From positions 62,001-126,000 of the forward strand of contig NZ_CAJYGQ010000001.1 in NCBI RefSeq assembly GCF_913773635.1: a DNA stretch of 64,000 bases. The letters are read 5' to 3'. The DNA is from an uncultured Mucilaginibacter sp. GTDB taxonomy: Bacteria; Bacteroidota; Bacteroidia; Sphingobacteriales; Sphingobacteriaceae. The notes beneath the pieces were generated by a model, which did no database searches, was not told where the DNA came from, and saw only the letters and a program-made list of their open reading frames with translations. Within the stretch, counting starts at the first letter, position 1. Every line of letters starts with the position of its first letter. Shown here piece after piece: positions 44,728 to 51,707 of the stretch. The translations under genes were made by a program, and so were the position numbers.

Positions 44728-44758
44728 TTTTAGTATTAGTTGATTGATATTAGTTCAT

Positions 44759-44819
44759 AGTTAATGGTTTATAGTTCATAGCGTGAGCCTAAGCAGCCAT
44801 GAACTATGGACCATAAACT
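44759..44819. repeat. Imperfect palindromic repeat between tktN and tal
   Basis: A 21-base arm (44759-44779) pairs with 44799-44819 in 18 of 21 positions around a 19-base loop. The left side also contains two direct copies of AGTTCATAG. Its AGTTCATAG/CTATGAACT-like words look like a dispersed REP-type element rather than a normal terminator, since no T run follows. It may affect tal-tkt mRNA stability. Confidence 0.55.
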
Positions 44820-49141: not shown

Positions 49142-49582
49142 TTATCTATCGGGTGTTCCGCGTTCACCAAGTTGTTTTATTAGTTCTTCGGTAAATTCAC
49201 GTTCACTTTGAAAAACGCGGTTAACTTTATCAGGAGGTAATATTTTTAAAAACTCCTTTGTATAATGTTTTTTGGCATCAACCAATTGCTGATCGTACTC
49301 AAGGTCTTTCTGAATCTGATCTTTTGACTTATTAAGGCGGTTTTGCAGTTTGGCTTTACGTATAGAGTTTACTTCTTCTTTATACTCTCGGTAAACCGGC
49401 CAAAACTTGGCTTTCTCATCATTACTTAGCTTAATTTGAGTTTCAATATAACCCTCGCGTATTAAGTTAAGCTTTTTTGACGGAGCCGATGTGCTTCTGA
49501 AAGATGCCGGTGGCTGGCTGAACACCTCATAGCCGGCAAAAATCATCAACGTAAACAATAAATATTTCAATAGTAACTTCAT
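49142..49582 (-). CDS. Small periplasmic helical protein, third gene of the ECF sigma operon
   Basis: This 146-residue protein has a signal peptide (about 1-22, YEVFSQ) and a predominantly helical, highly charged body. IETQIKLSNDEKAKFWPVYR and KILPPDKVNRVFQSEREF have the pattern of Spy/CpxP-like or zinc-resistance-sensor-like proteins. It starts 9 bases after the repeat protein stop, in the unit sigma-repeat protein-this gene. A periplasmic stress-sensing or chaperone role beneath the anti-sigma-like protein is an inference from position. Confidence 0.72.
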   Translation of the reverse strand: MKLLLKYLLFTLMIFAGYEVFSQPPASFRSTSAPSKKLNLIREGYIETQIKLSNDEKAKFWPVYREYKEEVNSIRKAKLQNRLNKSKDQIQKDLEYDQQLVDAKKHYTKEFLKILPPDKVNRVFQSEREFTEELIKQLGERGTPDR

Positions 49583-49591
49583 CTTAATTAA

Positions 49592-50533
49592 TTATTGCAA
49601 ATCAACATAATCCTGTATGGCCGCTCTTAAAGCGTTACTGTCTATCTGCGTGCCGTCGGCAATTACTCTGTGTTCGGTTTCGGTAGCTTCAGTTTGGGTT
49701 TCCAAAAAGTTTCTGATATCATCAGAAGGTATTTCTGAAAGTTCCTGATGCAGGTACGACTGTCCGTGTGATTTTAACAAAGGCGCGTCGCTGAAATATA
49801 GTGCTGCACCCGCTACAATGGCAAAACAAGCCGCTGAAGCATATTTAAATGCCGCAGTTGAAACCAGCTTGCGAATTACACCAACCGGCCTTGAAGGCAT
49901 TTGAATAACTTTAGCTTCACCCTCGCCGGTAGTTTGGCTTATTATGCTTTGCTGTAAAGTGTCAAAATACCCGGCTGGAACTTCAAAAGCATTTTGATGA
50001 GGCTCGGTAGCTTCTTCTAAAGCAATGCGGCTTAAGATGCTGTCACTCAAGTTTTCAAAATAGCCCTTTGGTACCTCAAAGCCTTCATTTTCACCGGCTA
50101 AAGCTTCTTCAATCACTAAACGGCTTTGAATGTTACTGTTTAGTTCTTCAAAATAGCCTTGCGGAACGGTGAACGCTTCCTGGCTTGCATCTGTAGCTTT
50201 TTCAATAGTGATGCGACTTTGAATATTAGCTGCAAGTTCATCAAAGTAATTTGCCGGTACAGCAAATGCATTTGTTGAACCAGTAAGGGTTTCTTCAATG
50301 GCAATACGGCTTACAATATTATTGCTTAAACCGGCAAAGTAATTTTCCGGAACTGTAAAACCACCACTAATGTCGTTACGCTTAAATTGTTCTAAATGTA
50401 CACCCGATATGATCCGCTCGCTCAAATCATTAAAGTACCCTGCAGGCACATCAAAAGCATTGCCTGGTTGAGGCAGCTTTTGGCGCCAGGAGTTGTCTTC
50501 CGGCAGGTCTTTATGTTCTATATCGATTTCCAT
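49592..50533 (-). CDS. Membrane protein with six VP-x-x-YF repeats, probable anti-sigma-type partner
   Basis: This 313-residue protein has, on residues about 25-208, six tandem repeats of about 31 residues with consensus xxFxVPxxYFxxLxxxIxSRIxIE. The repeat starts are at about 25, 57, 88, 119, 150 and 181. A single TM helix (about 230-250, SAACFAIVAGAALYF) and a 60-residue C-terminal part follow. It lies 51 bases after an ECF sigma factor gene, the usual position of an anti-sigma factor, but has no recognisable ZAS or FecR domain. The repeats would lie in the cytoplasm and might bind the sigma factor. The function is inferred from context. Confidence 0.7.
   Translation of the reverse strand: MEIDIEHKDLPEDNSWRQKLPQPGNAFDVPAGYFNDLSERIISGVHLEQFKRNDISGGFTVPENYFAGLSNNIVSRIAIEETLTGSTNAFAVPANYFDELAANIQSRITIEKATDASQEAFTVPQGYFEELNSNIQSRLVIEEALAGENEGFEVPKGYFENLSDSILSRIALEEATEPHQNAFEVPAGYFDTLQQSIISQTTGEGEAKVIQMPSRPVGVIRKLVSTAAFKYASAACFAIVAGAALYFSDAPLLKSHGQSYLHQELSEIPSDDIRNFLETQTEATETEHRVIADGTQIDSNALRAAIQDYVDLQ
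49910..50461 (-). repeat. Six tandem 93-base coding repeats
   Basis: This region encodes the six VP-x-x-YF units. Protein motifs are well kept while codons have drifted, indicating an old internal amplification under selection at protein level. Units are 31 residues long, and the first has one extra residue. Confidence 0.8.
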
Positions 50534-50584
50534 ATCCCTCGTTAGATTAAAATGAAACTAAAAGGTTTAATGTGTAAATGAAAA

Positions 50585-51139
50585 TTAATCGGTTGATAAT
50601 AAGAATGCTTCAATTTTTTTTACTGCCAAATGGAAAGACGCCTTTAAAGCTCCTACACTTGTACCCAGTATTTCTGAAATTTCTTCATACTTCATATCAT
50701 CGTAGTATTTCATGTTAAATACCAGCCGTTGTTTATCGGGCAGGGTAAGCAAAGCTTGCTGAAGTTTAAGCTGCACCTTGTCGCCGCTGAGGTACGTGCT
50801 GTCGGCCAGTGACTCCGATAACTCATACGACACATCATCCAACGGAATGTTATTCTTTTGTTTCTTTTTATTTAAAAATGTAATGCACTCGTTAGTTGCA
50901 ATCCGGTACATCCAGGTGTACAGCTGGGCATCGTTCCTGAAACCTGGCAAGTTTTTCCATATTTTTATGAATACATCTTGTACCAGGTCATCTGCATCGT
51001 CATGATCAATAACCATGCGGCGAACATGCCAATATATTTTTTGCTGATACTTTTTAAGCAGCAAATTGAAAGCCTCATTTCGGGTACGTTCGTCCTGAAA
51101 CTTAGCAAGTATCTCGGTATCACTAACGGATGCTGACAT
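50585..51139 (-). CDS. ECF sigma factor (RNA polymerase sigma-70 family)
   Basis: This 184-residue sigma factor has region 2 with HDDADDLVQDVFIKIWKNLP and AQLYTWMYRIATNECI. Region 4 has LTLPDKQRLVFNMKYYDDM and the HTH YEEISEILGTSVGALKASFH. It has no extra domains. Its operon includes the repeat membrane protein and a periplasmic helical protein, forming a likely signal chain from envelope to transcription. No target promoter motif was identified. Confidence 0.93.
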   Translation of the reverse strand: MSASVSDTEILAKFQDERTRNEAFNLLLKKYQQKIYWHVRRMVIDHDDADDLVQDVFIKIWKNLPGFRNDAQLYTWMYRIATNECITFLNKKKQKNNIPLDDVSYELSESLADSTYLSGDKVQLKLQQALLTLPDKQRLVFNMKYYDDMKYEEISEILGTSVGALKASFHLAVKKIEAFLLSTD

Positions 51140-51242: not shown

Positions 51243-51707
51243 TTACGCTTTTAGCAGGTCAAGCACTTGTTGTGATGAGTTTTTTGTATCTACTTTTGCA
51301 ATAACGTGGCTTATTACACCTTCGGGATTTATAATAAATGTGGTGCGCTGGGTACCCATATATTTTTTGCCGTACATATTTTTTTCAACCCATACGCCAT
51401 AGTCATTCACAATTTTTTGGTCGGTATCGGCAATTAGTGTAAATGGTAAGCTGTATTTGGTTTCAAACTTTTTGTGAGATTTTTCATCGTCAACACTTAC
51501 ACCAATAACTTCATATCCTTGCGAACTAAGGTATTCGTAATTGTCTCTGAAATCGCATGACTCGGCAGTGCACCCAGGGGTATCATCTTTCGGATAAAAA
51601 TATAAAATGACAGTTTTTCCTTTGTAATTGTCTAAAGATACCGTGTTGCCATTTTGGTCTTTAGCTGAAAATTCAGGGGCTTTATCGCCTTGTTTTAAAC
51701 TCGACAT
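51243..51707 (-). CDS. bcp: Thioredoxin-dependent peroxiredoxin (BCP/PrxQ)
   Basis: This 154-residue peroxidase reduces H2O2 and alkyl hydroperoxides. The peroxidatic Cys46 and resolving Cys51 are in TPGCTAESCDFRD, and the family sequences VILYFYPKDD, GVSVDDEKSHKKFETKY and QRTTFIINPEGVI are present. It is 17 bases after the M23 peptidase gene and is probably co-transcribed with it. Confidence 0.94.
   Translation of the reverse strand: MSSLKQGDKAPEFSAKDQNGNTVSLDNYKGKTVILYFYPKDDTPGCTAESCDFRDNYEYLSSQGYEVIGVSVDDEKSHKKFETKYSLPFTLIADTDQKIVNDYGVWVEKNMYGKKYMGTQRTTFIINPEGVISHVIAKVDTKNSSQQVLDLLKA

Follow-up and report, generated by a model that had tools for sequence, protein, structure and literature searches.

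Organization of the three-gene operon

The window analyzed here, a stretch of 64,000 nucleotides, contains a three-gene operon located entirely on the minus strand, in which the gene of an ECF sigma factor is followed by the gene of a repeat protein and by that of an exported helical protein. The first gene (50585..51139) codes for a protein of 184 aa that matches the Pfam models Sigma70_r2 (8.4e-18) and Sigma70_r4_2 (1.3e-15), both over the cut-off, as in the ECF class (group 4 sigma70). With its sigma2 and sigma4 domains and its position immediately upstream, this gene suits the role of partner of the repeat protein that an earlier note on this DNA had given it. Residue D50 of the sigma factor (codon 50990-50992), the position that covaries with the repeat protein, falls in its putative region 2.2. 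The second gene (49592..50533) encodes the repeat protein of 313 aa, which we propose to be a membrane anti-sigma factor on the grounds of its units, its transmembrane segment and the gene order. The third gene (49142..49582) encodes an exported, predicted four-helix protein of 146 aa, designated Spy/CnrX-like, a putative periplasmic sensor or chaperone.

Upstream of the sigma gene sits a peroxiredoxin (bcp-like) gene (51243-51707, minus strand). Many related loci likewise show the end of a peroxiredoxin gene ahead of sigma, and others seemingly that of a transketolase-like gene, both names coming from a reading of the upstream DNA by eye and not from a search. An ECF-type promoter was not recognized by eye upstream of 55 Mucilaginibacter-type loci, and autoregulation of the operon is therefore not claimed.

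Repeat units, membrane topology and selection

Six tandem units of about 31 residues precede the single transmembrane helix of the repeat protein. They follow the pattern F-x-V-P-x-x-Y-F-x-x-L-x-x-x-I, with FxVPxxYF as the core, and start at aa 27, 59, 90, 121, 152 and 183 (spacings of 32, 31, 31, 31 and 31 residues). Unit 1 (aa 27-58; 50360..50455, minus strand as all features of this gene), the only one with a basic residue at position 14 (R40), is the proposed anchor on sigma region 2.2. It is followed by unit 2 (aa 59-89; 50267..50359), unit 3 (aa 90-120; 50174..50266), unit 4 (aa 121-151; 50081..50173), unit 5 (aa 152-182; 49988..50080) and unit 6 (aa 183-206; 49916..49987), which is of the last type. 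The motif residues F, V, P, Y, F, L and I are kept in 6/6 units. The transmembrane segment (about aa 229-253; 49775..49849) comes after a basic stretch, and a C-terminal tail of about 60 aa (49595..49774), proposed to be periplasmic, completes the protein.

The most hydrophobic segment of the protein is the 19-residue window from aa 235. The 20 residues before the hydrophobic segment hold four K/R and no D/E, and the 20 residues after it one K/R and four D/E. Since the basic stretch precedes the membrane segment, the positive-inside rule puts the repeats on the cytoplasmic side. The regular motif spacing, the one hydrophobic segment and the charge pattern around it thus bear out what had been claimed from a first reading of the sequence, namely six repeats ahead of a single membrane helix and probably on its cytoplasmic side. 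In six Sphingobacterium-type relatives (L077, L078, L081, L084, L088 and L091) the best hydrophobic window is weak, with a mean of 0.81-0.95, and the transmembrane segment is uncertain.

The four internal units of the window share 50-62% of their residues at the protein level and 57-68% of their nucleotides, with a pS of 0.82 and a pN of 0.26, and the array was not reported in the DNA by Tandem Repeats Finder. Because the DNA of the internal units has diverged while synonymous change exceeds nonsynonymous change, the array is taken to be old, and selection to have kept it. The claim of the earlier note that the repeats are under selection is upheld by these values along with the conserved motif residues. 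Comparison with the units of the relative L005 gave a dN/dS of 0.18, indicative of purifying selection. In the whole window the same program reported a single tandem repeat, at 44737-44781, made of 2.1 copies of a 21-base unit.

Searches of the repeat protein against Pfam and NCBIfam returned chance-level matches only and no covering model, in accordance with the earlier statement that it lacks known anti-sigma domains. The general anti-sigma model NF052375 matched three of four relatives scanned at 16-20 bits, far under its cut-off of 100. This model was rejected as evidence, as its six matches in the window's genome lie elsewhere and none is over the cut-off. No other significant match of the unit profile was found in the window's own genome.

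In the AlphaFold2 model every unit consists of a loop and a subsequent helix that starts at the Tyr-Phe pair and spans about 20 residues, or 13 in the last unit. Judged by the hydrophobic moment, the unit helices of the window's protein are no more amphipathic than shuffles. The model of sigma and repeats had a mean pLDDT of 66, a moderate confidence, and gave no reliable placing of the units relative to sigma; as a read-through of the two proteins it yielded no docked complex (pTM 0.25), a result uninformative either way.

The exported helical protein

The third protein carries a signal-like N-terminus, and its model shows four helices after the signal-like helix (pLDDT 87, pTM 0.69). No Foldseek match was found at E<=0.001; CnrX entries occupied 9 of the first 13 rows. 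Structural alignment with VIA-align gave Z scores of 6.0-7.6 for CnrX, 6.0 for ZraP, 5.8 for STV and 5.7 for CpxP, among many other helical proteins, and as all scores of this protein stay under 8, the range of common helical bundles, they are suggestive only. The best VIA-align match of the model (m6469475a71e0) was PDB 3kdw, a Bacteroides vulgatus protein called putative sugar-binding, with a Z of 7.8 and an rmsd of 7.5, and may be due to chance.

The window's protein matched neither of the profiles LTXXQ (PF07813) and Metal_resist (PF13801), and a PDB sequence search with the alignment of Spy-like proteins found nothing related. Four of ten relatives of the third protein match LTXXQ, Metal_resist or both, all below the cut-off. 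Together, the predicted four-helix exported fold and the sub-threshold matches of the relatives favor the Spy-like character assigned to this gene earlier, and we use "Spy/CnrX-like" as a suggestive working label.

Distribution and conservation of the gene order

The repeat protein is present in 35/37 genomes of the same genus, the window's own included, and the two genomes without it are 71% and 61% complete. In a scan of named genomes, the best 80 of at least 194 relatives belonged mostly to Mucilaginibacter, Sphingobacterium and Pedobacter. A profile of the unit only matched 19/395 genomes of the phylum at E<=1e-4, and a broader unit profile at E<=0.01 matched 211/395 genomes of the class, in 118/196 genera. 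Two genomes, G594 (contigs C27 and C1) and G1397 (contigs C244 and C50), have a significant unit in two separate places each, so that a cell may carry more than one such switch.

All fetched loci, with identical proteins counted once and a unit of at least 15 bits required, comprised 433 distinct unit-bearing proteins. These loci were found through the unit or the repeat protein and never through sigma, and they represent the better-scoring matches, so that stray units may be under-counted. An ECF sigma gene lies directly upstream in 429/433 and a Spy-like gene downstream in 427/433. Among the four proteins without an upstream sigma gene, L202 stands at a contig end and the fetched stretch of L387 stops 145 nt upstream. 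The locus L456 (43-1827) holds a sigma fragment cut by the stretch, a unit protein, a Spy-like gene and a second unit protein without a sigma gene of its own, and is a partial duplication of the operon. At L470 (485-1839) the unit protein directly follows what by eye seems to be a ribonuclease Z gene with no sigma gene between them, which makes this locus the one clear exception to the link with sigma.

Profile counts, which are minimum values since diverged units are missed, gave one unit in 190 of the 433 proteins, two in 100, three in 50, four in 30, five in 21, six in 30, seven in 11 and eight in 1. With this range of one to eight units, the operon recurs widely across related bacteria. 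The comparison of repeat number among orthologues, proposed earlier as a check, showed it to be variable: the 55 distinct proteins of Mucilaginibacter-type loci have four (8 proteins), five (10), six (27), seven (9) or eight (1) units.

Covariation between the sigma factor and the unit

Inter-protein covariation was assessed by mean-field coupling analysis with neighbour-permuted runs as the null. Signals from 164 sigma/unit pairs were within permutation noise. Analysis of 304 pairs revealed two inter-protein couplings that recurred in all or nearly all of the four sets tried. The coupling of sigma residue 111 with unit position 1 reached z 5.5-7.4, and none of 70 neighbour-permuted first-unit runs reached 7.4. 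For sigma residue 50 and unit position 14 the four sets gave z 4.4, 4.0, 5.7 and 6.2 against permutation maxima of 5.5, 4.5, 5.2 and 6.0, the maximum being exceeded, slightly, only in the last-unit set and the set of proteins with at most two units.

Both couplings were stated as predictions before 125 new pairs were fetched, whose proteins are new but come partly from families already sampled. In these pairs position 14 of the first unit is occupied by R, K or H in 61/80 proteins beside a sigma factor with Asp50 vs 4/45 with Asn50 (Fisher 7e-14), and phylogenetically independent contrasts were concordant in 8 cases, discordant in 0 and tied in 6. The last unit behaves alike, with a basic position 14 in 59/80 proteins with Asp50 and 4/45 with Asn50. 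The candidate contact of sigma 111 with position 1 was rejected on the same holdout (Tyr1 in 2/15 with Ile/Val111 vs 7/108 with Leu/Met, p 0.30). Across all 429 pairs, sigma 50 and position 14 form the top inter-protein coupling, with z 7.1 for the first unit and 8.2 for the last, and z 7.6 in the 186 single-unit proteins; the null, 40 neighbour-permuted runs on the first-unit set, peaked at 5.4.

When aligned to solved sigma factors, residue 50 belongs to the stretch DDADDLVQDVF and stands at what we take to be the start of region 2.2. The covariation suggests a contact of unit position 14 with sigma residue 50, and the acidic-basic pairing at this region is what would be expected, by analogy, from an anti-sigma helix lying on sigma2.

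Sigma contact and gene order alone are compatible with either sign of control, and FecR-type proteins can be required for sigma activity. The repeat protein might accordingly activate sigma or anchor it from within the membrane, in a positive role like that of FecR, instead of inhibiting it. We consider this improbable, as no FecR domain occurs in the repeat protein, the putative contact surface is the RNA polymerase docking region in the available account of PMC7406223, and the middle gene is inhibitory in a Phocaeicola operon of like layout, according to the available part of PMC13114119.

The unit as a likely sigma-binding module and the possible role of extra copies

The smallest members of the family have only 32 (L133), 35 (L130) or 39 (L187) residues before the membrane, which is essentially one unit, and another eight of the 33 single-unit proteins studied have 45-47. 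Since little else precedes the membrane in these proteins, the unit itself is likely the sigma-binding module, provided that binding is cytoplasmic. Units of multi-unit proteins fall into three classes, with 54% identity between first units, 55% between last units, 36% between first and last units and 66% among internal units within a gene. Scored against the class profiles, the 33 single-unit proteins proved to be 14 first-like, 12 internal-like, 5 last-like and 2 mixed, so that no one class is singled out as ancestral.

The earlier note envisaged that the repeats bind several sigma molecules or other partners, as a multivalent sponge. In its strict form, each unit of an anti-sigma factor would hold its own sigma, and the repeat number would set the amount of sigma held. 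The motif kept in every window unit, the purifying selection acting on the units (against L005) and the variation of unit number from 1 to 8 overall and from 4 to 8 among close relatives are in line with this idea; the basic residue at position 14 is not. Asp50 proteins with 1, 2, 3-4 and >=5 units have on average 0.70, 0.97, 1.39 and 1.31 units with a basic position 14, that is, about one per protein whatever the unit number, and the window's protein has it in unit 1 only. Among 20 close relatives, the window's protein included, position 14 is basic in 15/20 first units vs 1/71 internal units, and units differ in class according to whether they stand first, internally or last. Amplified units as equivalents were rejected on this count, and unit copies are not interchangeable as to this residue. 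Some basic position 14 also occurs in Asn50 multi-unit proteins, in 14/29 with 3-4 units and 3/5 with more. Of the multivalent proposal, the contact of a unit with sigma is thus backed by covariation, but six equal sites are not, and one sigma per unit appears rather unlikely. Equally doubtful is the wider claim that the units make up a separate structural class of ECF anti-sigma modules, smaller than those in the literature examined and widespread in Bacteroidota, and at the same time hold several sigmas per membrane protein when amplified in tandem; were several sigmas held per protein, the repeat number would tune the activation threshold.

Internal units have a pattern of their own, with a basic position 18 in 69/71 of those in the 20 close relatives besides the near absence of a basic position 14. 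This pattern would suit a protein in which unit 1 binds the cognate sigma and the internal units bind other ECF sigmas (the window's genome has 29 Sigma70_r2 matches) or another cytoplasmic partner. As no partner was found for the internal units, and single-unit relatives do without them, we regard such an arrangement as a long shot. An anchor on sigma2 with re-specialised copies fits the sequence data better than six equal sigma sites do; these copies may serve sigma4 binding, added avidity or another partner, and a weaker hold of the internal units on sigma is also conceivable.

Proposed mechanism and significance

The reading that best accommodates these results, and that we hold to be very probable, is that of a modular family of membrane anti-sigma factors in a CnrYXH-like operon, whose unit would bind region 2.2 of sigma. 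By sequence, charge pattern and gene order, the repeat protein has the layout of a membrane anti-sigma factor: it is encoded beside sigma and has a cytoplasmic part, one transmembrane segment and an outer part. It would act as the anti-sigma factor of a membrane sigma/anti-sigma switch, with the VPxxYF unit as a very small sigma-binding module in which an extended FxVP segment caps one helix of about 20 residues. Placed against region 2.2, the docking surface for RNA polymerase, this helix would keep sigma off the polymerase. Unit 1 of the window's protein is the candidate canonical anchor, with R40 facing sigma D50, and units 2-6 would be copies that arose by duplication, became re-specialised in part and contribute further contacts or avidity. 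The outer tail and the exported Spy/CnrX-like protein are proposed to monitor the condition of the envelope and thereby to bring about sigma release. The computed support for this scheme consists of the three-gene layout, the single-unit members, the charge pattern of the membrane segment and the sigma-unit covariation, from which we infer that the repeat protein binds sigma directly and inhibits it, that the third protein acts as a sensor, and what the extra units do.

In the literature searched, no paper naming the VPxxYF motif was found, and a search for VPEGYF, VPENYF, VPDGYF, PEGYFE and PENYFE returned as its sole match a paper on a cellulase, judging by its title. The proteins described here are best regarded as a new family within an established type of regulator, and perhaps even as a structural class of their own. 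In comparison with the anti-sigma modules in the literature examined, the unit would be remarkably small for a sigma binder, and its occurrence in one to eight copies offers a natural series in which to measure how valency affects the control of sigma.

Comparison with known anti-sigma systems

According to the available text of PMC7406223, a class I anti-sigma domain adjoins 6% of Bacteroidetes ECF sigma factors vs 32% overall, and other anti-sigma classes are suspected to dominate in this group. The VPxxYF module provides a specific candidate to fill a portion of this gap, though not all of it, because there is usually one locus per genome. Among membrane anti-sigma factors of Bacteroidota, those of the Dma/Reo type in Bacteroides and Phocaeicola are likewise adjacent to an ECF sigma gene. 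As far as described in PMC13088901, PMC9308784 and PMC13114119, they have a C-terminal beta-barrel reaching the outer membrane, whereas the repeat protein has only about 60 residues after its transmembrane segment. Nor did Pfam or NCBIfam yield a FecR match for it at E<=1.

The operon of Phocaeicola vulgatus composed of CirY (sigma), CirZ (anti-sigma) and Spy has the same order of sigma, anti-sigma and co-transcribed Spy-like gene, a likeness in gene order, and PMC13114119, in the part available, reports higher cirY and spy when cirZ is deleted. That part describes no repeats in CirZ, in contrast to the six of the window's protein. In six Bacteroidales-like loci the downstream genes, read by eye without a search, are not those named for the CirY regulon, so that identity with CirYZ is unproven.

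Known anti-sigma factors contact both sigma2 and sigma4, while here contact with sigma2 only is indicated. In class I anti-sigma factors (RseA, RsiW, RskA and ChrR), the fourth helix of a four-helix domain binds sigma regions 2.1/2.2, where RNA polymerase docks, as outlined in PMC7406223, and this contact resembles the one suggested for the unit helix. The repeat protein differs in having no such domain: no Pfam or NCBIfam match to the class I four-helix domain was obtained at E<=1, and AlphaFold2 predicts one helix per unit.

A parallel in overall design is offered by CnrY-CnrX-CnrH of Cupriavidus metallidurans, where an ECF sigma factor is combined with a very small helical anti-sigma factor and a periplasmic helical sensor (PMC4598750 and PMC7406223, as far as available). 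A PDB sequence search with the repeat alignment, of a kind that would miss a short divergent domain, returned nothing related and found no similarity to CnrY. The accessible descriptions give CnrY two helices and mention no repeats (PMC4598750, PMC7406223), unlike the present unit with its one predicted helix in tandem copies. Both systems share, in the present case putatively, a small sigma-binding part and a helical periplasmic sensor, with CnrX prevailing in the first Foldseek rows of the third protein, and the second helix of CnrY is reported in PMC7406223, as far as its available text goes, to bind sigma2 much like the fourth helix of class I.
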